Of a DNA stretch of 10,151 nucleotides, positions 1,806 through 10,151 are shown piece after piece. This DNA is from Gammaproteobacteria bacterium (lineage in GTDB: Bacteria; Pseudomonadota; Gammaproteobacteria; S144-34), in assembly GCA_015487895.1 (NCBI GenBank), contig WFOW01000105.1, positions 1 through 10,151 on the forward strand, read 5' to 3'. The position numbers and the translations under genes were made by a program. Numbering within the stretch: position 1 is the first letter of the stretch; each line of letters begins with the position of its first letter. The notes beneath the pieces are model-generated. The model did no database searches, was not told the DNA's origin, and saw nothing but the letters and a program-made list of their open reading frames with translations.

Positions 1806-1889
1806 CAGGTTACGGCTCACAGTTGACGGTTTGCGGCATGAGTTCCCATCGCTCCGGACCGTAAGCTGCGACACGCGAGCTGTCGGCTG
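1806..1889. repeat. Heptad-repeat element with two inverted arms, nagZ-mscS spacer
   Basis: The 89-nt gap between nagZ and the MscS gene is almost filled by a degenerate seven-base repeat. On the plus strand, units beginning C-A/G-G start at 1806, 1813, 1820, 1827 and 1834 (for example CAGGTTA at 1806 and CGGTTTG at 1827). On the minus strand the same type of unit occupies 1883-1889, 1876-1882, 1869-1875, 1862-1868 and 1855-1861 (for example CAGCTTA at 1862-1868). One unit, CGTGTCG at 1869-1875, departs from the pattern. The two five-unit arms face each other across 14 nt, so the element is twelve seven-base steps long. It starts directly after the nagZ stop codon and ends 5 nt before the next start codon. 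Function is unknown; no terminator with a T tract is visible. Confidence 0.6.
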
Positions 1890-1894
1890 CCCAA

Positions 1895-3034
1895 ATGGAA
1901 CTGTCGGACCTCACCGCCTGGCTCGACGTCTTCCGCGGCAAGGGCGCCTGGATCACCCAGGTCTTTCTCATCGTCCTCGCCACGCTCCTGCTCAACTTCG
2001 TGCAGCGGCGGCTGCGGCTGCGCCTGCAGCGGCGCCTCGAGCGCACCCGCACGCCCTGGGACGACGCCGTCGTCGAGGCGCTCGGCCCCCCGCTCACCTG
2101 GCTGATCTGGGTGGTCGGCATCGCCTTCGCCGCCACCGTGGTGCAGCGCGCCACGGGCGCGGCCATCTTCGAGGCGGTCGGCCCGGTGCGCGACGTGGCC
2201 GTCATCGCCATCGTCGTCTGGTTCCTGCTGCGCCTCATCCGGCGCGCCGAGGCCAACCTCATCGCCGCGGCCGAGGCGCAGGGGCGCAAGGTCGACCGCA
2301 CCACGGCGGACGCCATCGGCAAGCTGCTGCGCGCCTCGGTCATCATCACCGGCGCGCTCGTCGCGCTGCAGACGCTCGGCTACAGCATCTCGGGCGTGCT
2401 CGCCTTTGGCGGCATCGGGGGGCTGGCCGTGGGCTTCGCGGCCAAGGACCTGCTCGCCAACTTCTTCGGCGGGCTCATGATCTATCTCGACCGCCCCTTC
2501 GCCGTCGGCGACTGGATCCGCTCGCCGGACCGCGACATCGAGGGCGTGGTGGAGCGCATCGGCTGGCGCCTGACCACGATCCGCACCTTCGACAAGCGCC
2601 CGCTCTACGTGCCCAACGCCACCTTCACCCAGATCGCGGTCGAGAATCCCTCGCGCATGAGCAACCGCCGCATCTACGAGACCATCGGCATCCGCTACGA
2701 CGACGCCGACCGGCTCGAGGGCATCCTGCGCGACGTGCGCGCCATGCTCGAGAACCACCCCGAGATCGACCACGACCAGATCCTCATGGTCTACTTCAAC
2801 GCCTTCGGCCCGTCCTCGCTCGATTTCTTCGTGTACGCCTTCACCAGGACGACGAAGTGGGCCGAGTACCACCGCGTCAAGGAGGACGTGCTGCTGCGCA
2901 TCCAGCGCATCATCCGCGAGCACGGGGCCGAGATTGCCTACCCGACGACCACGGTGCACGTGCCGGAAGGCCTGCGCATCCACGGCATGAGCCCGGCCGA
3001 GCCCACGCGCCCGCAGCCGCCGGCGGCGTCCTGA
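1895..3034 (+). CDS. MscS-family mechanosensitive ion channel (medium-length, five-helix type)
   Basis: Predicted inner-membrane mechanosensitive channel, gating ion or osmolyte release under membrane tension. The 379 residues exceed E. coli MscS (286) and resemble YnaI-type members. Hydrophobic segments lie near residues 18-37, 67-83, 98-115 and 145-162. The pore-lining helix is the Gly/Ala-rich stretch at 166-193 (SGVLAFGGIGGLAVGFAAKD...), leading into LMIYLDRPFAVGDWI (194-208), which begins the beta domain of the cytoplasmic vestibule. TTIRTFDKRPLYVPNATF is another family landmark. The C-terminus ends in a Pro/Ala-rich tail. ATG 1895 is the only reasonable start: the frame is closed by TAA at 1862 and no ATG, GTG or TTG lies between. 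There is no visible Shine-Dalgarno sequence, because the heptad repeat runs to within 5 nt of the start. The substrate and any lipid or ion selectivity cannot be told. Confidence 0.93.
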   Translation: MELSDLTAWLDVFRGKGAWITQVFLIVLATLLLNFVQRRLRLRLQRRLERTRTPWDDAVVEALGPPLTWLIWVVGIAFAATVVQRATGAAIFEAVGPVRDVAVIAIVVWFLLRLIRRAEANLIAAAEAQGRKVDRTTADAIGKLLRASVIITGALVALQTLGYSISGVLAFGGIGGLAVGFAAKDLLANFFGGLMIYLDRPFAVGDWIRSPDRDIEGVVERIGWRLTTIRTFDKRPLYVPNATFTQIAVENPSRMSNRRIYETIGIRYDDADRLEGILRDVRAMLENHPEIDHDQILMVYFNAFGPSSLDFFVYAFTRTTKWAEYHRVKEDVLLRIQRIIREHGAEIAYPTTTVHVPEGLRIHGMSPAEPTRPQPPAAS

Positions 3035-3061
3035 GCGCGCAGCGCGCGGCGGCGCTAGAAT
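3035..3061 (+). promoter_or_regulatory. Possible promoter for the dsrE-like/hpt/chalcone-isomerase-like cluster
   Basis: The 85-nt gap after the MscS gene contains TAGAAT at 3056-3061, a good match to a sigma-70 -10 box and AT-richer than its surroundings. No convincing -35 box is visible at the usual distance; the bases near 3032-3037 (TGAGCG) match poorly. The transcription start would fall near 3068, leaving a leader of about 50 nt before the DsrE-like start codon. This is a weak call, made from one box and its position at the head of a closely spaced gene cluster. Confidence 0.3.
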
Positions 3062-3106
3062 GGCATGCGGCGGGGAGGGGCCGTGCCGTGGGCGGATCCT
3101 GGCAGC

Positions 3107-3116
3107 GGGAGAGGAG
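3107..3116 (+). promoter_or_regulatory. Ribosome binding site deciding the DsrE-like start at 3120
   Basis: A purine-rich run GGGAGAGGAG lies 3 to 12 nt before the ATG at 3120. It supports this start over the longer in-frame ATG at 3060, which would add a 20-residue Gly/Arg-rich leader unlike the family and would begin inside the putative -10 box. Confidence 0.65.
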
Positions 3117-3119
3117 ACG

Positions 3120-3488
3120 ATGCCCGACAAGCTCATGATCGTGATGGTCAACACGGACCCCACCAACGCCGCCGAGCTCGGCGCCCCCTTCTTCCAGGCG
3201 ACGGTGGCGGCGGCGATGGAGTACGAGGTCGAGGTCATCCTCACGGGCCGCGCCGGCCAGCTCGCCATCAAGGGCGTGGCGGAGCAGATCCGCGTCCAGG
3301 AGGGCAGCGACAAGACGGTCTACGACTTCATCAAGGACGCCCACGAGGCCGGCGTGAAGTTCAAGGTCTGCACGCCCACGCTGGACCTGTGGGGCAACGA
3401 CCTGATCCCGGAGATCGAGGAGACGGTGGGCGGGGCCTACGTCATCAGCGAGGCCATGGACGAGGGCACCGTGACCTTCACCTACTGA
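3120..3488 (+). CDS. Small DsrE-superfamily (DsrE/TusD-like) protein
   Basis: A 122-residue soluble protein with the compact alpha/beta pattern of the DsrE/DsrF/TusD superfamily: strand MIVMVNTDP near the N-terminus, helix around NAAELGAPFFQATVAAAME, strand EVEVILTGRAG, a middle segment ending in a helix (YDFIKDAHEAG), then strand KFKVCTPTLDL. Cys84 is the only cysteine and sits where this superfamily often carries a sulfur-binding or redox cysteine, just after the third strand. Known relatives move sulfane sulfur in tRNA thiolation (TusBCD) or in sulfur oxidation (DsrEFH); this short single-cysteine type has no assigned role that I know of. No other sulfur-oxidation genes are visible here, so a function in that pathway is conjecture. 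The gene leads a cluster: the hpt GTG lies 11 nt after its stop, and the hpt ribosome binding site overlaps this stop codon. Confidence 0.8.
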   Translation: MPDKLMIVMVNTDPTNAAELGAPFFQATVAAAMEYEVEVILTGRAGQLAIKGVAEQIRVQEGSDKTVYDFIKDAHEAGVKFKVCTPTLDLWGNDLIPEIEETVGGAYVISEAMDEGTVTFTY

Positions 3489-3499
3489 AGGCTGGCCCC

Positions 3500-4075
3500 G
3501 TGGACCGCACCGTGACCGCCGGCGCGCCCCCCGACGAGGTGCTCGAGACCTGGCGCCGCGCCGAGCGCCTCTACGGGCGCGCCGAGATCGAGGCGGCGCT
3601 CGACGCCATGGCCGCGGACATCACCCGCGCCCTCGGCGGCAGCGACCCCGTGGTGCTGTGCGTGATGCTCGGGGGCCTGGTCCCGGCGGGCCACCTGCTC
3701 GCGCGGCTCGACTTCCCGCTGACGCTGGATTACGTGCACGCCACACGCTACCGCGGGGACGTGCGGGGGCAGGAGCTCGAGTGGATCGCGCGTCCCCGCA
3801 CCCCCCTCGAGGGCCGCACCGTGCTGGTGCTGGACGACATCCTCGACGAGGGGGTGACGCTCGCGGCCATCCTCGAGGACTGCCGCGCGCGCGGCGCGCG
3901 CGCCGTGCACAGCGCCGTGCTGGTCGACAAGCGCATCGGCCGCCCGCGGGCCCTGGAGCGCGCCGACTTCACGGGCCTCAGCGTCCCCGACCGCTACGTC
4001 TTCGGCTTCGGGATGGACTACCGTGGCTACCTGCGCAACCTCCCCGCCATCTACGCCGTGGCCGAGGGCGGCTAG
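3500..4075 (+). CDS. hpt: Hypoxanthine(-guanine) phosphoribosyltransferase
   Basis: Cytosolic purine-salvage enzyme joining hypoxanthine (and probably guanine) to PRPP to give IMP or GMP and pyrophosphate. The protein has 191 residues from GTG 3500, within the usual 175-190 range. Landmarks are the pyrophosphate loop VMLGGLVPAGHL (from residue 55), the PRPP-binding signature VLVLDDILDEGVTL (108-121), in which Asp116 matches the catalytic aspartate of HGPRTs, and the purine-binding segment PDRYVFGFGMDYRGYLRNLP (163-182). Orotate, uracil and adenine transferases lack this last segment. GTG 3500 is supported by GAAGG at 3487-3491, eight bases upstream and overlapping the DsrE-like stop codon, which suggests coupling. 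A second in-frame GTG at 3512 would shorten the protein by four residues. The convergent mtnP product is predicted to generate hypoxanthine, making Hpt its natural partner. Confidence 0.93.
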   Translation: MDRTVTAGAPPDEVLETWRRAERLYGRAEIEAALDAMAADITRALGGSDPVVLCVMLGGLVPAGHLLARLDFPLTLDYVHATRYRGDVRGQELEWIARPRTPLEGRTVLVLDDILDEGVTLAAILEDCRARGARAVHSAVLVDKRIGRPRALERADFTGLSVPDRYVFGFGMDYRGYLRNLPAIYAVAEGG

Positions 4076-4643
4076 GCGCGCCCTGGCGGCGCTCGCCGCG
4101 GCGGCGCTCGCCCTCGCCGGGATGCCGGCCCCGGCGCGCACGGTGGCGGGCGTCGAGGTGCCGGAGGAGGTGACGCTCGCCGACGGCACCGTGCTGCGGC
4201 TCAACGGCGCCGGTGTGCGCCGCAAGCTCTTCGTCAAGGTCTACGTCGGCGCCCTCTACCTGCCGCGGCCGCGGAGCGATCCGGCCGCGATCCTGGCCGC
4301 CGACGAGCCCCAGCGCGTCGAGATGCGCATCCTGTACCGCCACATCGGGGTGCGGAGGATGCGCGGGACGTGGGAGGAGGGCCTGCGCCGCAACCATCCG
4401 CCGGAACGGCTGGAGCGGCTGCGGCCCGACATCGAGCGCTTCTACGCGGCGATCCGGCCCGTGCGGCGCGGCGACCTCGTCACCTTCACCTACCGGCCCG
4501 GCGAGGGCATGGCCATCGTCCACAACGGCCGCCGGATCGACGTGATCCCGGGGCGGGGGCTCTTCGCGGCCCTGCTCGGCGTCTGGCTCGGGCCGAGCCC
4601 CCCGGACGAAGGCCTCAAGCGGGCGATGCTGGGCAGGCAGTAG
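4023..4643 (+). CDS. Exported chalcone-isomerase-like protein of unknown function
   Basis: A 206-residue protein matching the bacterial chalcone-isomerase-like family found in proteobacterial periplasmic proteins. The core begins VAGVEVPEEVTLADGTVLRLNG and continues NGAGVRRKLFVKVYVGALYL (61-80). A middle segment resembles MRILYRHIGVRRMRGTWEEG, and the end PPDEGLKRAMLG is also typical. Basic residues (PRAARR, 14-19), a hydrophobic Ala/Leu stretch (20-33) and AP-A-R near 36-39 form a probable signal peptide, so the mature protein is likely periplasmic. The start is uncertain: GTG 4023 is used because the only later ATG (4122) would remove the signal peptide. That start overlaps the hpt gene by 53 nt, and CTG starts near 4083 cannot be excluded. 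Family members are not known to be true chalcone isomerases, and no substrate is assigned. The stop codon lies inside the heptad repeat. Confidence 0.8.
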   Translation: MATCATSPPSTPWPRAARRALAALAAAALALAGMPAPARTVAGVEVPEEVTLADGTVLRLNGAGVRRKLFVKVYVGALYLPRPRSDPAAILAADEPQRVEMRILYRHIGVRRMRGTWEEGLRRNHPPERLERLRPDIERFYAAIRPVRRGDLVTFTYRPGEGMAIVHNGRRIDVIPGRGLFAALLGVWLGPSPPDEGLKRAMLGRQ

Positions 4644-4685
4644 GCAGACGTCGGCCTTCAGCGCTCGACCGCAAGCCGCTAGCTG
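4638..4685. repeat. Heptad-repeat element at the convergent gene junction
   Basis: The same seven-base rhythm fills the junction between the convergent chalcone-isomerase-like and mtnP genes. Plus-strand units beginning C-A/G-G start at 4638, 4645, 4652 and 4659 (for example CAGACGT at 4645). Minus-strand units occupy 4679-4685, 4672-4678 and 4665-4671 (for example CGGCTTG at 4672-4678). The two arms meet head to head at 4665. Both neighbouring stop codons (4641-4643 plus; 4679-4681 minus) lie within repeat units, so the last codons of both proteins are partly repeat-derived. No T-tract terminator is seen in the 35-nt gap. Confidence 0.5.
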
Positions 4686-4693
4686 CCAGCTAG
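4679..4693. repeat. Inverted repeat over the mtnP stop codon
   Basis: CTAGCTG and CAGCTAG are perfect 7-base inverted arms separated by one base (4679-4685 and 4687-4693). Realistically it would fold with five pairs and a five-base loop. It spans the mtnP stop codon, and a perfect 10-bp palindrome AGGAGCTCCT follows at 4692-4701. It could help end transcription from either side, but it lacks a T tract, so it is recorded as a repeat, not a terminator. Confidence 0.5.
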
Positions 4694-5431
4694 GAGCTCC
4701 TGGAGGAGACGCCTTACGCGGGCCATCCCTTCCTCCAGCCAACGCTCGATCTCCTCCATGGCGATGCGCCCGTCGCCGGGCCCACGCCCGGCGGCGCGGT
4801 TGACGACCACGGCGCAGCAGGCGTAGCAGAGCTCGAGCTCGCGCGCGAGCGCCGCCTCCGGCATGCCCGTCATGCCCACCATGTCGCAGCCGTCGCGCGC
4901 GAGGCGCTCGATCTCGGCCGCCGTCTCCAGGCGCGGCCCCTGGGTGGCGGCATAGGTCCCCCGCTCGCGGAAGGGCACGCCGGCCGCGCGTGCGGCCTCC
5001 ACCAGCCGCCGCCGCAGCGTCTCGCAGTACGGGTAGGTGAACTCGATGTGGGTGACGGGCGCGCCGTCGCCGTCGAAGAAGGTGTGCGCCCGGCCCCAGG
5101 TGTAGTCCACGATCTGGTCCGGGATGGCGAGGGTGCCGGGCTCCAGCCCCTCGGATATGCCGCCGACCGAGTTGACGGCGACGACCTCCTCGACCCCGAG
5201 GCTCTTCAGGGCCCAGATGTTGGCACGGTAGTTGACGCGGTGGGGCGGGATGGTGTGGCCGTAGCCGTGGCGCGCGAGAAAGACCACCTCGCGCCCGTGC
5301 AGCAGGCCGTGGGTGACCGGCCCCGAGGGCTCGCCGTAGGGGGTGTGCACCACCTCGCGGCGCACGATGTCCAGCCCCTCGAGGCGGGTGAGCCCGCTGC
5401 CCCCGATGATGGCGATCGCCCTGTTGCCCAT
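4679..5431 (-). CDS. mtnP: S-methyl-5'-thioinosine phosphorylase (MTAP/PNP family)
   Basis: Cytosolic phosphorylase predicted to cleave methylthioinosine with phosphate to hypoxanthine and 5-methylthioribose-1-phosphate, a salvage route for the methylthioadenosine by-product of polyamine synthesis. The protein has 250 residues. Landmarks are the phosphate-binding GGSGL (10-14), RHGYGHTIPPH (54-64), NSVGGISEGLEPG (87-99), ATQGPRLET (162-170) and GMTGMPEA (186-193), all typical of MTAP-like enzymes. In the base-binding region the sequence is VVVNRAAGRG, with Asn211 where adenine-specific MTAPs have a TDYD-type aspartate motif. An asparagine here is a 6-oxopurine feature of PNPs and favours methylthioinosine over methylthioadenosine. 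Plain MTAP or inosine/guanosine phosphorylase activity remains possible. ATG 5431 is supported by AGGGGAGG at 5443-5450. It is the last gene of the mfd-csiV-mtnP operon, 20 nt after csiV. Confidence 0.9.
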   Translation of the reverse strand: MGNRAIAIIGGSGLTRLEGLDIVRREVVHTPYGEPSGPVTHGLLHGREVVFLARHGYGHTIPPHRVNYRANIWALKSLGVEEVVAVNSVGGISEGLEPGTLAIPDQIVDYTWGRAHTFFDGDGAPVTHIEFTYPYCETLRRRLVEAARAAGVPFRERGTYAATQGPRLETAAEIERLARDGCDMVGMTGMPEAALARELELCYACCAVVVNRAAGRGPGDGRIAMEEIERWLEEGMARVRRLLQELLAGS

Positions 5432-5442
5432 GGTCCGCCGCG

Positions 5443-5450
5443 CCTCCCCT
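5443..5450 (-). promoter_or_regulatory. Ribosome binding site of mtnP
   Basis: AGGGGAGG on the minus strand, 11 nt before ATG 5431 and directly after the csiV stop codon (5452-5454). It fixes the mtnP start; the open frame itself continues far upstream without a stop, as expected at this base composition. Confidence 0.7.
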
Positions 5451-5451
5451 T

Positions 5452-6240
5452 TCAGCTCCCGGTCGCGCCGCCGGCCCCGGCGCACCCGGCGCCCTCGGGG
5501 CAGGGCACGCGCCGCACCCGCACCAGCGCCCCGAAGGCCGGGTGGTCGAAGTAGTGCACCTCGCCCAGGCGCACGCGCCGGCGCTGGTGCAGCCGGAAGA
5601 CCTGCCGCCGCTCGGTTGTCATGCGCGCGCCCGTGACGGGATCCGTGACCTCGACCGCCAGCGCCCCCCGGTAGGCGAGGTCCACCGCCACGTGGAGGTA
5701 GCGGCTCAGGGTCACGCGCACGGTGCCGTCCACGGCCTCGGGGGGCACGTATGGTCCGGCCTCCGCCGCGACGCCCGGCTGGTCCGCGGGCGGCTCCCCG
5801 CCCTCCGCCGAAAGCGTCGGCTCCGGCGCTTCCGGCCGCAGCCACGGCCCTTCGGGCAGGCCCCCGTGAATGCGCACGGGCACCGCCTCGTCCGGCCCCA
5901 GCGGCGCCTGCCGCCAGGCGGCGCGCGCGAGCGGGCGCACCGCGCCCGAGCGCTCGAGCCGGGCCCACGTCCCGGTGAGGAGGGAGGCATCTCCCGCCGG
6001 CAGGGAGGCGACGGGCCGCCCGGCCGGCACCGGTGCGAGCGTCCCGGGCTCGACCGCGTCCCCGGGCACCTCCGGCACCCGGGGCTCCTCGGGCCAGCGC
6101 TCCGTGAGGCGCTGCGCGGGGTCTGTCCAGGCGAAGACCACCACCTCGACCGCGTACCAGTGGCGCGCCGGCCCCGCCGCCGGGGCGGCGCCCGCGGCGA
6201 GCAGCGCGAGCAGCGCGACGAGCGGCGCCGCCCGTCTCAC
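5452..6240 (-). CDS. csiV: CsiV-family envelope protein
   Basis: A 262-residue exported protein of the CsiV family, whose Vibrio cholerae member (about 258 residues) is a periplasmic protein needed for peptidoglycan assembly through the LpoA/PBP1A pathway. The N-terminus is a clear signal peptide: RR at 2-3, a Leu/Ala core, and a likely cut near APAAG at 19-23. WYAVEVVVF (28-36) directly after it is the family's opening strand. The end contains SRYLHVAVDLAY, RRQVFRLHQRRRVRLGEVHY and FDHPAFGALVRV, also family hallmarks. The middle is rich in Pro, Glu and Ala and poorly conserved. GTG 6240 overlaps the mfd stop codon (shared bases GTGA, 6237-6240) and has GAGGAGG at 6248-6254, seven bases upstream, so the start is firm and translation is probably coupled to mfd. 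Whether the Vibrio function carries over here is inference. Confidence 0.85.
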   Translation of the reverse strand: MRRAAPLVALLALLAAGAAPAAGPARHWYAVEVVVFAWTDPAQRLTERWPEEPRVPEVPGDAVEPGTLAPVPAGRPVASLPAGDASLLTGTWARLERSGAVRPLARAAWRQAPLGPDEAVPVRIHGGLPEGPWLRPEAPEPTLSAEGGEPPADQPGVAAEAGPYVPPEAVDGTVRVTLSRYLHVAVDLAYRGALAVEVTDPVTGARMTTERRQVFRLHQRRRVRLGEVHYFDHPAFGALVRVRRVPCPEGAGCAGAGGATGS

Positions 6241-9200
6241 GCCCCGGCCTCCTCGGGCTGGGCGGCCCCGGCCGGCGCCGGCGCGATCGCCTCCAGGAGC
6301 GCCGCCACCGCCGCGATGCGCGCCTCCTCGCCCTCGAGCGCCGCCTCGAAGCGCAGCTCGCGCTGCCCGTCGAGGCGGTAGCGGCCGGGCTCGCCCTGCA
6401 CCAGCGCCACCAGGCGCGCCGGGTCGATGCGCGGCGCCTCGCCGAAGACCAGGCGGCCGCCGCGCGGGCCGGCCTCGACGCGCTGGATGCCGAGCGCCTC
6501 GGCGCGCCGCCGCAGGGCGGTGAGCTCGAGCAGGTGGCGCAGCGGGCGGGGCAGGGGGCCGAAGCGGTCGACGAGCTCGGCCTCGAGCTCGCGCAGCGCC
6601 GCGCGGTCCGCGGCGCCGGCGATGCGCTTGTAGAGCACCAGGCGGGCGTCCACGTCCGGGAGGTAGTCCTCCGGGATGAGGGCGGCGAGGCCGAGGTCCA
6701 CCTCGACCCCGCCCTCGGCGGAGAGGTCCTCGGGCGGCAGGCGCCCGGCCTTGAGGGCCGCGACCGCGCGCTCGAGCATCTCCATGTAGAGGCCGAAGCC
6801 GACCTCCTGGATGTGACCGCTCTGGGCCTCGCCGAGCAGCTCGCCCGCGCCGCGGATCTCGAGGTCGTGCGTGGCGAGGGTGAAGCCGGCGCCGAGCTCG
6901 TCGAGCGACTCGATGGCCTCGATGCGCTTGACCGCGTCGGCGGTCATGAGCTCGCGCGGCGGCAGCACCAGGTAGCAGTAGGCGCGGTGGTGCGAGCGCC
7001 CGACGCGCCCGCGGAGCTGGTGGAGCTGCGCGAGGCCGAAGCGGTCGGCGCGCTCGATGATCATGGTGTTGGCGCTCGGCACGTCGATGCCGCTCTCGAT
7101 GATGGTGGTGCACACCAGCACGTTGAAGCGCTGGTGGTAGAAGTCGAGCATGACCTGCTCGAGCTCGCGCTCGCGCATCTGGCCGTGGGCGACGCGCACG
7201 CTCGCCTCCGGCACCAGCTCGCGCACGCGGCGCGCCGCGCGCTCGATGCTCTCGACCTCGTTGTGCACGTAGTAGACCTGGCCCCCGCGGCGGATCTCGC
7301 GCAGGCAGGCCTCGCGGATCAGGCCCGGCTCCCAGGCGCACAGCAGCGTCTTCACGGCCATGCGCCCCGGCGGCGGCGTGGCGATGATGCTGAGGTCGCG
7401 CAGCCCCGCGAGCGCCATGTTGAGCGTGCGCGGGATGGGCGTGGCGGTGAGGGTGAGCACGTCGACCTCGGCGCGCAGCGCCTTGAGGCGCTCCTTGTGG
7501 CGCACGCCGAAGCGGTGCTCCTCGTCGACGATGACCAGCCCCAGGTCCTTGAAGCGCACGCCCTTCTGCAGCAGGCGGTGGGTGCCGACGACGACGTCCA
7601 CGCGCCCCGCGGCGAGGTCGGCGAGCACGGCCTCCTGCTCCTTGCGCGAGCGCAGGCGCGACAGCGCCGCCACGCGCACGGGCCAGTCGGCGAAGCGGTC
7701 GAGGAAGTTCTGGTGGTGCTGCTGGGCGAGCAGCGTGGTGGGCACCAGCACCGCCACCTGCGCGCCGCTCATGGCCACCACGAAGGCCGCGCGCAGGGCG
7801 ACCTCGGTCTTGCCGAAGCCGACGTCGCCGCACACCACGCGGTCCATGGGGCGGGGCGCGGCGAGGTCGGCGAGCACGGCCTCGATCGCCGCCTGCTGGT
7901 CCGGGGTCTCCTCGAAGGGGAATGCCTCGGCGAAGGCGGCGTAGGTGGCCGGATCGACGCGGAAGCTGCGCCCGGGGCGGGCCGCGCGCCGGGCGTGGAT
8001 CTCGAGCAGCTCCGCGGCGACGTCGCGCGCGCGCTTCGCCGCGCGCCGGCGCGCGCGCCGCCACTGCTCGCCGCCGAGGCGGTGGAGCGGGGCGGCCTCG
8101 TCGGCGGCGCCGGTGTAGCGGCTCACCAGGTGCAGGGAGGCGACCGGCACGTAGATGCGGTCGCCGCCCGCGTACTCGATGACCAGGAACTCCTGCTCGA
8201 CGCCGTCGAGCGTGAGGCGCTCGAGGCCGCGGTAGCGGCCCACGCCGTGGTCGACGTGCACCACGGGCGCGCCGGGGCGCAGGTCCGTGAGGTCGCGGAC
8301 GACGGCCTCGGGGTCGCGCGCGGCGCGCCGGCGGCGCGGGCGCGCGCGCTCGCCGAGGAGCTGCGCCTCGGTCACCACGGCCAGCGCCGGCTCCTCCAGC
8401 ACCAGGCCCTCGTCCACCGGCACCACGCCGAGGGCGAGCGGCGCATCGCCCTCCAGGAAGGCCTGCCAGCCCTCCACGGGCCGGGGGCGGATGCCGTGGT
8501 CGGCGAGCAGCCCGCGCAGCACCTCGCGCCGCCCCGGGGTCTCGGCCGCGAACAGCACCCGCCCCCGGAAGGTCTCCAGGAAGCGCCGCAGCGCCGCCGC
8601 GGGCTCCCTGGCGCGGGCGCGCACGCGCAGCTCCGGCGGCGCCGCGGTGGCGAAGTCCGCCGCCCCCGGCGCGTGCCGCTCGGCGCGGCGCGCCTCGATG
8701 CGCGGGTGCGCCGCGCGGCGGCGTGCCGCCTCCTCCGGCGGCAGGTAGAGCGCCTCGGGCTCGAGGGCGGGGCGCTCCGGGTCGCGCCGGCGCGTCTCGT
8801 AGCGCTCCCCGAGCTCGGCCCAGAAGCGCTCGGCGGCCTCCGCGGCGCCCTCGAGCTCGACGAAGACCGCCCCTTCCGGCAGGTAGTCGAACAGCGTCAC
8901 GGTGCGCTCGAAGAACAGCGGCAGGTAGTACTCGACCCCGCCCGGCGCCAGCCCGCGGCTCACGTCGCGGTAGATCACGCTCTGGCGCGGGTCGCCCTCG
9001 AAGCGTTCGCGGTAGCGGCGGCGGAAGGCCGCGATCGCCTCCTCGTCGAGGGGGAACTCGCGCGCCGGCAGCAGCCGCACCGCCTCGACGCGCTCCACCG
9101 AGCGCTGCGTCTCGGGGTCGAAGGTGCGGATGGACTCGATCTCGTCGTCGAAGAGATCGAGACGGTAGGGCCGCGGGGCGCCGGCCGGGAACAGGTCGAG

Positions 9201-9737
9201 CACCGCGCCGCGCACCGCGTACTCGCCGTGCTCGCCCACCTCCGGCACGGCGCGGTAGCCGGCCGCCTCCAGACGCGCCCGGAAGGCGGCGACGTCGAGG
9301 CGCTCGCCGACCTCGAGGCTCAGGGTGCGCGCCTCCACGTACTCCGGCGGGGCCAGGCGCTGCAGGAGGGTCGCCGCCGGCACCACCAGCACCCCCGCCC
9401 GCACCCGCGGCAGGCGCGAGAGGGTCTCCAGGCGCCGCGAGACGCTGTCGGGGTGCGGCGGGACGGGATCGTAGGGCAGCGTCTCCCAGTCCGGGAAGTC
9501 CAGCACCGGGAGCCCCGGCGGGGCGAGGGCGCGCACCGCGCGCCCGAGGCGTTCGGCCGTGCCCGCGTCCGGCGCGATCACCACCAGCAGGCGCCCGTGG
9601 CGGGCCGCGGCGCGGGCGAGGGCGAGCGGCAGCGCCGCTCCGTAGAGCCGCCCCCAGCGCAGGGGCGCGCCCGGGCCCTCGGGCACGGGCGGCTCGAGGA
9701 CGCTGGCAAGTCTGGCCTCGCGCGTGAGATCGTCCAT
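6237..9737 (-). CDS. mfd: Transcription-repair coupling factor Mfd
   Basis: ATP-dependent DNA translocase that removes RNA polymerase stalled at DNA lesions and recruits UvrA for nucleotide excision repair. The protein has 1166 residues (E. coli 1148) and looks complete. The UvrB-like, UvrA-recruiting region is residues 1 to about 330, with DFPDWETLPYDPVPPH and GEYAVRGAVLDLFP visible. The RNA-polymerase interaction domain begins near 485, with VHVDHGVGRYRGL from 493 and ...GDRIYVPVASLHLVSRY after it. The translocase follows, with Walker A GDVGFGKT (637-644), DEEH (738-741), TLTATPIPRTL near 762-772 and QLRGRVGRSHHRAYCY near 905-920. The C-terminal domain includes ALIPEDYLPDVDARLVLYKRIA near 1015-1036. 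ATG 9737 matches the family N-terminus but has no Shine-Dalgarno; a GC hairpin sits there instead. It is the first gene of the operon with csiV and mtnP. Confidence 0.98.
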   Translation of the reverse strand: MDDLTREARLASVLEPPVPEGPGAPLRWGRLYGAALPLALARAAARHGRLLVVIAPDAGTAERLGRAVRALAPPGLPVLDFPDWETLPYDPVPPHPDSVSRRLETLSRLPRVRAGVLVVPAATLLQRLAPPEYVEARTLSLEVGERLDVAAFRARLEAAGYRAVPEVGEHGEYAVRGAVLDLFPAGAPRPYRLDLFDDEIESIRTFDPETQRSVERVEAVRLLPAREFPLDEEAIAAFRRRYRERFEGDPRQSVIYRDVSRGLAPGGVEYYLPLFFERTVTLFDYLPEGAVFVELEGAAEAAERFWAELGERYETRRRDPERPALEPEALYLPPEEAARRRAAHPRIEARRAERHAPGAADFATAAPPELRVRARAREPAAALRRFLETFRGRVLFAAETPGRREVLRGLLADHGIRPRPVEGWQAFLEGDAPLALGVVPVDEGLVLEEPALAVVTEAQLLGERARPRRRRAARDPEAVVRDLTDLRPGAPVVHVDHGVGRYRGLERLTLDGVEQEFLVIEYAGGDRIYVPVASLHLVSRYTGAADEAAPLHRLGGEQWRRARRRAAKRARDVAAELLEIHARRAARPGRSFRVDPATYAAFAEAFPFEETPDQQAAIEAVLADLAAPRPMDRVVCGDVGFGKTEVALRAAFVVAMSGAQVAVLVPTTLLAQQHHQNFLDRFADWPVRVAALSRLRSRKEQEAVLADLAAGRVDVVVGTHRLLQKGVRFKDLGLVIVDEEHRFGVRHKERLKALRAEVDVLTLTATPIPRTLNMALAGLRDLSIIATPPPGRMAVKTLLCAWEPGLIREACLREIRRGGQVYYVHNEVESIERAARRVRELVPEASVRVAHGQMRERELEQVMLDFYHQRFNVLVCTTIIESGIDVPSANTMIIERADRFGLAQLHQLRGRVGRSHHRAYCYLVLPPRELMTADAVKRIEAIESLDELGAGFTLATHDLEIRGAGELLGEAQSGHIQEVGFGLYMEMLERAVAALKAGRLPPEDLSAEGGVEVDLGLAALIPEDYLPDVDARLVLYKRIAGAADRAALRELEAELVDRFGPLPRPLRHLLELTALRRRAEALGIQRVEAGPRGGRLVFGEAPRIDPARLVALVQGEPGRYRLDGQRELRFEAALEGEEARIAAVAALLEAIAPAPAGAAQPEEAGA

Positions 9738-9742
9738 GGCAA

Positions 9743-9758
9743 CGGGCGCACGCGCCCG
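9743..9758 (-). promoter_or_regulatory. GC hairpin in the mfd leader
   Basis: A near-perfect palindrome of 16 bases (CGGGCGC and GCGCCCG arms with two bases between) ends five bases before the mfd start codon. In the transcript it would occupy the place of the missing ribosome binding site. It may limit mfd translation, or be chance in a very GC-rich leader. Confidence 0.4.
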
Positions 9759-9788
9759 CTCCCGCGGGGCGGGCGGGCGGCTTCGCGC

Positions 9789-9794
9789 ATTGTA
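9789..9794 (-). promoter_or_regulatory. Probable -10 box of the mfd-csiV-mtnP promoter
   Basis: TACAAT on the minus strand, one base from the sigma-70 consensus, in the only AT-rich patch of the region (9788-9803). Transcription would start near 9781, giving a leader of about 44 nt. No good -35 box lies at 17 nt spacing (CACTCT at 9812-9817), and that position already touches the edge of the repeat array, so promoter strength may depend on repeat sequence or on an activator. Confidence 0.5.
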
Positions 9795-9814
9795 AAGGAA
9801 TCGTGCCTCGAAGA

Positions 9815-10078
9815 GTGGACGGGAGACGGGTTACGGGAGACGGGAAAGATCGAAAGGCCGCGCGCGAAGCGCGCACCGACCCTCGTCTCTCGCCGCCCGC
9901 CTCCCGCGGCTGCCAGTGCACGGGCGACGGGCTGCGGGAGACGGGAAAGACCAAAAGGCCGCGCCCGCTTCGCGGGAGTGCACGGGAGACGGGTTACGGG
10001 AGACGGGAAAGACCAAAAGGCCGCGCGTGAAGCGCGCACCGACCCTCGTCTCCCGGCTCTCGTCTCCCGCGGCTGCCA
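9815..10078. repeat. Array of 101-bp hairpin-forming repeats (A, shortened B, C)
   Basis: Three tandem units start with GTGSAC: A at 9815-9915 (101 bp), B at 9916-9977 (62 bp) and C at 9978-10078 (101 bp). A and C differ at 9 of 101 aligned positions. B matches C at 46 of its first 49 bases and then lacks the 3' arm. In C, CGGGAGACG at 9983-9991 and 9997-10005 pairs exactly with CGTCTCCCG at 10061-10069 and 10047-10055, with matched 5-base spacers. An inner hairpin has arms 10023-10028 and 10032-10037 around GAA. A keeps the fold with one wobble and one mismatch in the outer stems. The 5' part of each unit is made of seven-base units beginning CGGG. The six-frame translations here are repeat-derived; I see no gene. 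Confidence 0.88.
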
Positions 10079-10149
10079 GTGCACGGGAGACGGGTCACGG
10101 TGTACAGGCCACTGTAAACCGTAACCTGTAACCCGTAACCAGTACCCTG
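10079..10149. repeat. Partial fourth repeat unit fused to a heptad inverted repeat
   Basis: The fourth unit matches unit C at 21 of its first 22 bases (10079-10100) and then departs from it. From there 10085-10107 and 10112-10134 form arms of 23 bases with 18 matching pairs around a GCCA loop. The right arm continues to 10149 as minus-strand seven-base units, with CTG, CCG, CTG, CCG, CAG and CTG at 10112, 10119, 10126, 10133, 10140 and 10147, exactly seven apart. Sample minus-strand units are CGGTTTA (10115-10121) and CAGGTTA (10122-10128). CAGGTTA also occurs in the plus strand at 1806. The element may continue past the window. Confidence 0.7.
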
Positions 10150-10151
10150 CC

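Follow-up and report, generated by a model that had tools for sequence, protein, structure and literature searches.

The intergenic DNA of this gammaproteobacterium and of its sister species carries composite interspersed heptamer repeats, which probably arise by seven-base slippage together with the copying of hairpin modules and are kept as structures at the 3' ends of genes; function is the weaker part of this account. The repeats were followed from the window, the whole stretch of 10,151 nucleotides that was analysed. It is a complete contig, and the contig end falls within the element that begins at 9820. Three genomes were compared: the window's own (88% complete), that of a sister species (94-96% identity, 98% complete) and that of a congener (81-83% identity).

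A seven-base rhythm had been proposed by the initial annotation for three noncoding sites of the window, with the gap at 3035-3119 lacking it. Identity at lag 7 was raised at 1806-1894 (z 3.6), 4638-4690 (z 4.2) and 9820-10151 (z 9.4), with none of 300 dinucleotide shuffles as high at any of the three sites, and lags 14 and 21 were likewise raised in all three elements. The rhythm is thus above chance. The gap at 3035-3120 gave z 0.6, with 89 of 300 dinucleotide shuffles equal or higher, and 9738-9819, the part before the big element, reached only z 1.0, so the negative control of the initial annotation stands. In-phase C-R-G was found at 5 of 6 sites in the 1806 plus arm and 4 of 6 in the 1848-1889 minus arm (0/2000 shuffles each), at 4 of 4 in the 4635-4664 plus arm (1/2000), 3 of 5 in the 4660-4698 minus arm (7/2000) and 5 of 7 on the minus strand of 10101-10151 (0/2000); the 3035-3119 gap had 4 of 12 on the plus strand (197/2000) and 1 of 12 on the minus strand. 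Recent copies are fitted better by CGGGNNR, their commonest unit, than by the originally proposed C-R-G-N-N-N-N. CAGGTTA was recovered as a single exact copy per strand, at 1806 on the plus strand and at 10122-10128 on the minus strand.

The three sites differ in their build. At the first, a plus heptad arm (1806-1840; CAGGTTA CGGCTCA CAGTTGA CGGTTTG CGG) lies immediately 3' of the stop codon of a GH3 (NagZ-like) gene, and a degenerate facing minus arm (1850-1889), too degenerate for an array call by the CGGGNNR score, reaches to 5 nt ahead of the start of an MscS-type gene. The fold of 1806-1885 gave z -2.5 on the plus and -0.5 on the minus strand. The orthologous gap of the sister species keeps arrays, and its alignment shows gaps of 11 and 3 nt, a net change of +14 nt; the orthologous gap of the congener has no array. 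At the second site, a plus arm (4635-4664) runs over the final codons and stop codon of a chalcone-isomerase-like gene, and the facing minus arm (4665-4690), in which a score relaxed to 8 finds three units, does likewise for a convergent phosphorylase-family gene. The arms of 4638-4690 face each other in rhythm, yet pair no better than shuffles (fold z -0.2 and -0.4).

The third site begins with a four-unit plus array at 9820-9847 (CGGGAGA CGGGTTA CGGGAGA CGGGAAA) containing a (G3N4)3G3 quadruplex motif at 9821-9844, followed by a plus-strand core hairpin, GGCCGCGCGCGAAGCGCGCACC, at 9856-9877 and a facing minus array at 9880-9906, predicted to pair with 9820-9847. A further plus array at 9920-9948 (CGGGCGA CGGGCTG CGGGAGA CGGGAAA; quadruplex motif 9922-9945) precedes a variant of the core hairpin at 9951-9976, with arms CCGCGCCCGC and GCGGG and no strand assigned. 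The second copy of the four-unit plus array, at 9983-10010, belongs to a 119-nt block with 92% identity to 9813-9931; it is followed by a second plus-strand core hairpin, GGCCGCGCGTGAAGCGCGCACC, at 10019-10040 and a facing minus array at 10047-10069, with which it is predicted to form a long two-part stem. The element closes on an abutting facing pair, a plus arm at 10084-10110 (CGGGAGA CGGGTCA CGGTGTA CAGG) and a minus arm of about five heptads at 10111-10149, which includes the minus-strand CAGGTTA; the fold of 10081-10151 gave z -4.0 and -4.6. A plus arm facing a minus arm, proposed for every site, describes 1806 and 4638, but 9820-10149 is a string of arms and hairpins and not one pair. 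The window had no Rfam match at the gathering score, block 9813-10151 had none among plasmids and phages, and the exact 19-mer was absent from viral contigs.

Similar elements occur at hundreds of places elsewhere in the genome. Near-matches to the 19-mer numbered 270 in the window's own genome (reversed control 0), 343 in the sister species (reversed control 1) and 4 in the congener, and among 369 genomes searched only the first two had more than 15 matches. With arrays called by an unsupervised, hand-rounded heptad profile, 97 were found in 149 sampled gaps of the window's genome and 136 in 213 of the sister species, as against 8 and 16 in reversed controls; coding DNA of the former held 20 arrays in 283 kb. 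One contig set from each of these two genomes had been picked for holding hits, and separate unbiased sets were also used; the latter gave no support to the repeats as a cause of assembly breaks. In the unbiased sample of the window's genome, noncoding DNA showed an excess at lags 7, 14 and 21 (z 9.6, 6.7 and 6.1), and coding DNA showed the codon period only, with no excess at lag 7 or 14. The lag-7 excess confined to noncoding DNA that the initial annotation had anticipated is therefore present, and it is weak in the unbiased noncoding sample of the sister species (z 2.4). Neither of the two outcomes that the initial annotation had named as refuting, no lag-7 excess or no similar elements in the rest of the genome, was observed. 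Seven-base arrays of other kinds were also seen: the congener contains (CTTGCTA)18, which has no G-tracts, and two other gammaproteobacterial genomes contain different seven-base words.

Within arrays, the loop words alternate with a 14-bp period. Units two apart were identical in 97 of 288 cases, above chance, and adjacent units in 52 of 492, against about 13% expected from word frequencies, that is, with no excess likeness. This counts against simple 7-bp slippage, which would not predict unlike neighbours. Exact runs of three, four and five units numbered 27, 57 and 13, a four-unit peak among runs of at least three that persisted without the copies preceding the core hairpin (18, 37 and 9); two-unit exact runs (87) were more numerous than four-unit runs, and profile-called arrays of the sister species had five units as often as four (43 and 43). 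Neighbouring arrays up to 120 nt apart were facing in 77 cases, back to back in 37 (p 2e-4) and on the same strand in 44. The strand reversal suggested for each element is thus a preference for facing over back-to-back arrangement, but is not universal. In 56 of 71 gaps the first array was a plus-strand one. Read along one strand, a G-rich arm usually precedes a C-rich one, and a core hairpin with compensatory changes often separates the two.

The arrays are placed unevenly relative to genes. Genes in the samples were called with a simple codon-score script, which on the window returned the expected genes, one of them with a longer start. Near gene ends, arrays are commonest just 3' of stop codons: in the first 75 nt past the stop, 74 of 730 genes had arrays on the coding strand and 13 had them on the noncoding strand. 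With complete 3' ends only, the counts were again 74 and 13 (662 genes; reversed control 11), and 26 of the 74 coding-strand arrays overlapped the stop codon. Ahead of starts, the noncoding strand carried 20 and the coding strand 13 (730 genes). Convergent gaps held arrays in 20 of 38 cases, as compared with 51 of 324 other gaps (p 1e-6); divergent gaps held them in 9 of 71, below convergent gaps (p 2e-5) but without a significant difference from co-directional ones (42/253, p 0.47). In the unbiased sets the post-stop asymmetry had the same direction without being significant (8 vs 3 and 5 vs 2), and arrays were present in 0 of 4 and 1 of 5 convergent gaps.

Comparison of the window's genome with that of its sister species showed that all six comparable orthologous array gaps kept their arrays and that all six changed in length by at least 14 nt, whereas 21 of 24 orthologous array-free gaps changed by at most 5 nt. 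Length differences of 14 or 35 bases separate some of the orthologous arrays, as expected of the growth in seven-base steps that had been suggested. Such growth covers only a part of the change: by total length, the difference between species is mostly gain or loss of longer pieces, chiefly not multiples of seven, and the unlikeness of adjacent units also speaks against simple slippage. In the congener, the single mappable array-holding gap had no array. Among positions within arrays, 21 of 521 in CGGG and 42 of 388 in the NNR loop had changed (p 1e-4), with units found by consensus in the window's genome, which may lower the apparent change of CGGG; C1 and the G positions are equally conserved. 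Array-free gaps differed at 414 of 2792 positions, counted without a local-identity filter. The divergence is uneven, and since CGGG changes more slowly than the loop it is not plain decay. This first change count suggests constraint on CGGG and not on the loop.

It is possible, though we doubt it, that the repeats are neutral or selfish, the functionless products of slippage and duplication tolerated at gene ends. The facing arms would then arise because hairpins promote template switching, copying one arm into the other. The confinement to one small lineage, the turnover of pieces between species and the empty gap in the congener are all in keeping with this, and gene ends, distant from promoters, would be tolerant. 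It accounts poorly for the lower rate at which CGGG changes, compared with loops inside the same arrays, for the four-unit peak and for the fact that after stops the G strand is predominantly the coding strand.

Motif counts also leave some room for the arrays being G-quadruplex elements, a tentative reading in which the four G-tracts would be the conserved feature, acting in DNA or in nascent RNA. (G3N4)3G3 occurred 52 times in the sampled noncoding DNA of the window's genome, 55 times in that of the sister species and not at all in that of the congener, and all quadruplex motifs together numbered 84 and 77 in the first two, as against 25 and 26 in shuffles. The four-unit peak points the same way, and the GGGNATC repeats of Xanthomonas, according to their published description, combine the same four-unit preference with quadruplexes formed in vitro (PMC4692102). 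Against this stand the conservation of C1, which a quadruplex does not need, the frequent facing of G arms by a pairable C arm, the 1806 and 4638 elements, which have no quadruplex motif, and the (CTTGCTA)18 array within the same genus.

The core hairpin is strongly paired. In the alignment, 99.4% of cells were paired and two pairs had changed on both sides; the analysis covered 43 of the 44 copies, the one left out having an extra base. The covariation score was reached by none of 500 shuffles, and two other measures by 61 and 41 of 500. For the 44 copies with their arms, the median fold z was -3.0 on one strand and -3.75 on the other, with individual copies ranging up to +0.5. We consider it unlikely that intrinsic transcription terminators are built upon this hairpin. 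The tail of the core on the opposite strand is 46% T (up to 16 nt), compared with 14% in the noncoding background, the core hairpin and its variant make up two of four terminator-like sites in the window (0.8 expected), and 10 of 44 core copies lie in convergent gaps. However, TTTT was found in none of the 44 copies in the 40 nt past the right arm, and of the 16 copies in co-directional gaps 5 had the terminator orientation and 11 the opposite one (p 0.21), so that the T-rich tail on one strand is not backed by orientation.

REP-like GGCTTCCAGCC hairpins are interspersed with the heptad arrays; they are about equally dense in all three genomes sampled and so do not follow the heptads. Mobilisation of REP/BIME-like elements by a Y1 (RAYT) transposase would suit such intergenic hairpin composites and the convergent-gap enrichment, which REPs share according to the account in PMC3733652, but it is very improbable and was set aside as the driver because Y1_Tnp matches (E 0.001) numbered 0 in the window's genome (88% complete) and 0 in the sister species (98% complete), the single match lying in the heptad-poor congener.

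In the account that we prefer, of seven-base slippage and hairpin-module copying with retention at 3' ends, short arrays would arise at gene ends and shift in length by 7- or 14-bp steps through replication slippage, and hairpin modules of about 90-150 nt would be copied, inside one gap or from gap to gap, through recombination or some other copying step. Transcribed copies would give the mRNA a stable 3'-end structure, predicted to be a long stem-loop or a competing quadruplex of the G arm, which may shield or delimit the transcript. Such a role would explain the post-stop position, the enrichment in convergent gaps and the slow change of CGGG. It may be weak, and tolerance at gene ends would then explain much of the position. 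A broader and rather improbable extension is that the seven-base pitch is the product of a shared replication or repair step, so that unrelated bacteria would reinvent heptad words with the same anatomy of facing arms and gene-end position; here the words would have been captured into a new, non-autonomous kind of hairpin element with a compensated core flanked by two heptad arms, multiplying without a Y1 transposase and with CGGG under selection as a 3'-end mRNA structure. A repeat-rich sister pair beside a repeat-poor congener makes slippage, hairpin and quadruplex constraint separable by per-position change counts, and the differing words in the two other gammaproteobacterial genomes make the origin of the seven-base pitch testable.

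Several known systems resemble these repeats in part. REP/BIME elements of the GTAG and CGTC families, described as palindromes of 20-40 bp, are likewise short hairpins of intergenic DNA, found chiefly where neighbouring genes converge or run in one direction; the GTAG families accompany RAYT transposases, unlike the repeats here, for which none were found in the two repeat-rich genomes (PMC3733652). The TAACTGA direct repeats of Beggiatoaceae are also dispersed intergenic heptamers of a gammaproteobacterial lineage, but they are not G-rich and most are reported just upstream of start codons (MacGregor 2015, PMC4679880); doubled TAACTGA was absent from five sampled contig sets. The four-fold heptanucleotide elements of Geobacter metallireducens share four tandem G-rich heptads and dispersal, but this 49-member family has the unit GGGACCG, lies at 49 places including the inside of genes, and is presented in the relevant part of the source with no mention of facing arms (PMC2700814). 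A search for literature on cyanobacterial short tandemly repeated repetitive heptamers found none under that term.

The closest likeness is to the G-rich heptamers of Rehm et al. (2015, PMC4692102), GGGNATC in Xanthomonas and GGGGA(C/T)T in Nostoc. The initial annotation did not recognise the repeat as a named family, but its kind is known from a few bacteria, plant pathogens and cyanobacteria among them, and G-rich heptamers with convergent pairs are already in print there. As far as that description goes, the shared features are a seven-base unit with G3, an intergenic bias, the four-unit preference, pairs in convergent orientation, coding-strand placement near stops, and common locations with variable length among related species; its discussion leaves function open. 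The description also places heptamers ahead of starts on the noncoding strand and finds few of them between divergent genes, features for which the counts here were 20 noncoding against 13 coding and 9 of 71 divergent gaps. The GGGNATC subfamily unit itself is rare here, near-matches to three GGGAATC units numbering 1 in the window's genome and 3 in the sister species. Compared with what is described for Xanthomonas and Nostoc, the present repeats have the unit CGGGNNR, many loop words with 14-bp alternation, a compensated core hairpin between the arms, interspersed REP-like hairpins and turnover in longer pieces. They are a lineage-specific variant of this known kind of G-rich intergenic heptamer.

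The initial annotation described a seven-base rhythm at 1806-1889, 4638-4685 and 9820-10149. This was borne out at all three sites, where lag-7 identity exceeded that of all 300 dinucleotide shuffles and further peaks stood at lags 14 and 21, and in-phase C-R-G counts per arm agreed with this result. The gap at 3035-3120, said to lack the rhythm, indeed had a lag-7 identity that was not above all 300 dinucleotide shuffles, and CAGGTTA was confirmed at 1806 on the plus strand and at 10122-10128 on the minus strand. The sites occupy gaps between genes, except that 4638-4690 runs across the ends of a convergent gene pair. The window is one entire contig (C105) of a 2.31-Mb assembly of 437 contigs that is 88% complete. 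A Pfam scan of eight genes, excluding the partial left-end ORF, assigned them to a GH3 hydrolase (NagZ-like), an MscS-type channel, a DsrE-family protein, a phosphoribosyltransferase, a chalcone-isomerase-like protein, a phosphorylase-family protein, a CsiV-family protein and Mfd.

Similar elements occur elsewhere in the genome, as had been anticipated: the window 19-mer ACGGGTTACGGGAGACGGG, allowing up to 3 mismatches, gave 270 matches, and the reversed control gave 0. Sequence was then sampled from this genome (G000; the first 40 contigs as an unbiased set, 10 of which read as N and were excluded, and 20 hit-chosen contigs plus the window), from a repeat-rich sister species (G002; 20 unbiased contigs, 3 of them N, and 20 hit-chosen) and from a repeat-poor congener (G001; the first 20 contigs). 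The predicted confinement of the lag-7 excess to noncoding DNA held in the unbiased G000 set (z 9.6, 6.7 and 6.1 at lags 7, 14 and 21), while coding DNA showed the codon period only. The corresponding peaks were weak in the unbiased G002 set (z 2.4, 1.9 and 3.0), strong in the hit-chosen G002 set (25.8, 19.6 and 17.3), and 4.2, -0.2 and 1.5 in G001. Sampled G000 noncoding DNA held 139 period-7 windows, vs at most 23 at every other period from 5 to 13; sampled G001 held 20, vs 21 at period 6.

Matches to the 19-mer were present in 15 of the 56 genomes of a relatives search, own genome included. G002, whose aligned window stretches are 94-96% identical, had 343 (control 1), and G001, at 81-83% identity in the same genus, had 4 (control 1). 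Of 369 genomes in the class, G000 and G002 alone exceeded 15 matches; the next-highest had 13, mostly in one long array. Among named species genomes, the exact 19-mer lay in 15 contigs of the MAG Gammaproteobacteria bacterium S144_34, and four further records had one occurrence each. It was absent from the viral contigs searched, and the 9813-10151 block had no match in plasmids and phages. At one locus G001 carries a short heptad array where G000 holds a similar one, indicating that at least one seed is older than their split. In G001, L086 5298-5860 and 7424-8323, which correspond to the gaps near 3035-3119 and 4644-4678 in the window, carry a different dispersed hairpin repeat (GGCCAGGGACGGCC, CATGCACAGGGAAGTGCATG) that is less dense in sampled G000 and G002.

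On the G strand, an unsupervised profile of seven columns, built from 301 periodic windows, has C (0.91), G (0.80), G (0.81) and G (0.74), followed by two variable positions and a mostly purine one. Exact CGGGNNR runs of 2, 3, 4 and 5 units numbered 87, 27, 57 and 13 (74, 18, 37 and 9 without copies preceding the core hairpin), and profile-called arrays of 3, 4 and 5 units numbered 8, 35 and 27 in G000 and 5, 43 and 43 in G002. Adjacent units were identical in 52/492 cases and units two apart in 97/288, with ~13% expected from word frequencies; thus the loops follow an alternating pattern that repeats every 14 bp. A common composite consists of a plus arm, a linker, the core hairpin and a minus arm (44 deduplicated copies, 24 in G000 and 20 in G002), with a median fold z of -3.0 on the first strand (range -7.5 to +0.5) and -3.75 on the second. 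In a second form two arms directly abut, as at 10084-10149. The core hairpin (window copies at 9856-9877 and 10019-10040, variant at 9951-9976) was compared in 43 copies, 20 of them distinct: 99.4% of cells were paired and 2 of 8 pairs had changed on both sides. Its covariation score was reached by 0/500 shuffles, and two other measures by 61/500 and 41/500. On the minus strand of this GC-rich genome, a T-rich tail comes after 10022-10038 (core hairpin) and after 9959-9975 (variant), resembling the arrangement of an intrinsic terminator. REP-like hairpins (GGCTTCCAGCC, GGCTGGAAGCC) are interspersed among heptads at several loci (e.g. L005, L024, L132), at similar density across the three sampled congeners.

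For position relative to genes, the array-calling score threshold yielded 97 arrays vs 8 in reversed sequence for G000, 136 vs 16 for G002 and 13 vs 2 for G001. Neighbouring arrays no more than 120 nt apart were facing in 77 cases, back to back in 37 and on the same strand in 44. With G000 and G002 pooled, so that some orthologous gaps count twice, arrays lay in 20/38 convergent, 42/253 co-directional and 9/71 divergent gaps. Within 75 nt downstream of the stop codons of 730 genes, 74 genes had arrays on their coding strand and 13 on their noncoding strand, an asymmetry driven by hit-chosen contigs, the unbiased sets being small and in the same direction (8 vs 3, 5 vs 2). The 662 complete 3' ends again gave 74 vs 13, with 26 of the 74 overlapping the stop and 11 in the reversed control. 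Upstream of starts, the noncoding strand carried 20 arrays and the coding strand 13. Contig ends fell within or near arrays in the window (10151), C25, C100, C168 and C279, all hit-chosen contigs or the window; in the unbiased sets, ends with two heptads (G000 2/60, G002 3/33) were no commoner than in G001 (3/34).

Of 166 G000 gaps, 30 could be mapped to sampled G002 sequence: arrays were present in both genomes in 6, absent from both in 24 and never confined to one. Lengths differed by at least 14 nt in 6/6 array gaps and by at most 5 nt in 21/24 array-free gaps. Seven gaps mapped to G001; one of them holds an array in G000, and all are array-free in G001. In G002 the nagZ-mscS gap retains its element at net +14 nt, the sum of an 11-nt and a 3-nt gap; the G001 sequence is array-free and of similar length. 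Growth by seven-base slippage, as initially proposed, is supported in part: differences of 14 and 35 bp lie inside arrays, but most change by total length involves pieces tens of bases long. The arrays may have arisen by slippage steps of 7 or 14 bp plus duplication of modules. Neither repeat-rich genome yielded a Y1 transposase gene; the single Y1 (RAYT-like) match lies in G001 (C114, L148).

In nine orthologous pairs, alignable units had changed at 21/521 CGGG positions and 42/388 NNR positions (p = 1e-4), although units were detected in G000 and change at CGGG may be understated. Non-heptad positions of the same gaps differed at 82/990, and array-free gaps at 414/2792, counted without a local-identity filter. 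Because of this constraint and the position of the arrays, we favor a putative folded structure at transcript 3' ends. Quadruplex formation is possible: in sampled noncoding DNA, (G3N4)3G3 was counted 52 times for G000 and 55 times for G002, and 0 times in sampled G001. As a sole cause, however, it is disfavored by C1, which is conserved as well as the G positions (3/129 changed, vs 3/129 for the last G and 8/131 and 7/132 for the other two), and by a seven-base array without G-tracts in G001, (CTTGCTA)18 at L055 1532-1656, in a genome with few G-rich heptads. The T-rich tail makes the core hairpin a possible intrinsic terminator, but the orientation of its copies lends this no support, 5/16 in co-directional gaps pointing in terminator direction.

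Elsewhere in the class, two gammaproteobacteria carry seven-base arrays of their own (L232, L236, L244-L249): GGGCAGC-type in G343, and GGGAATA in G248, where a plus and a minus array face each other within ~250 nt at three places. Within the searches made, we found no description of the CGGGNNR unit, the loop alternation or the compensated core hairpin. The initial annotation recognized no named family, but the kind is already published, as G-rich heptamer repeats, by Rehm et al. 2015 (PMC4692102). That account covers intergenic GGGNATC and GGGGA(C/T)T repeats that favor four units, form 70 and 75 convergent pairs in two Xanthomonas genomes, lie on the coding strand close to stop codons, and occupy shared sites at variable length. 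Four-fold heptads are also reported at 49 places in Geobacter metallireducens (PMC2700814). The G000 and G002 repeats follow the same grammar as the GGGNATC and GGGGA(C/T)T types of PMC4692102, and the heptad family is thus a variant of an already known kind.
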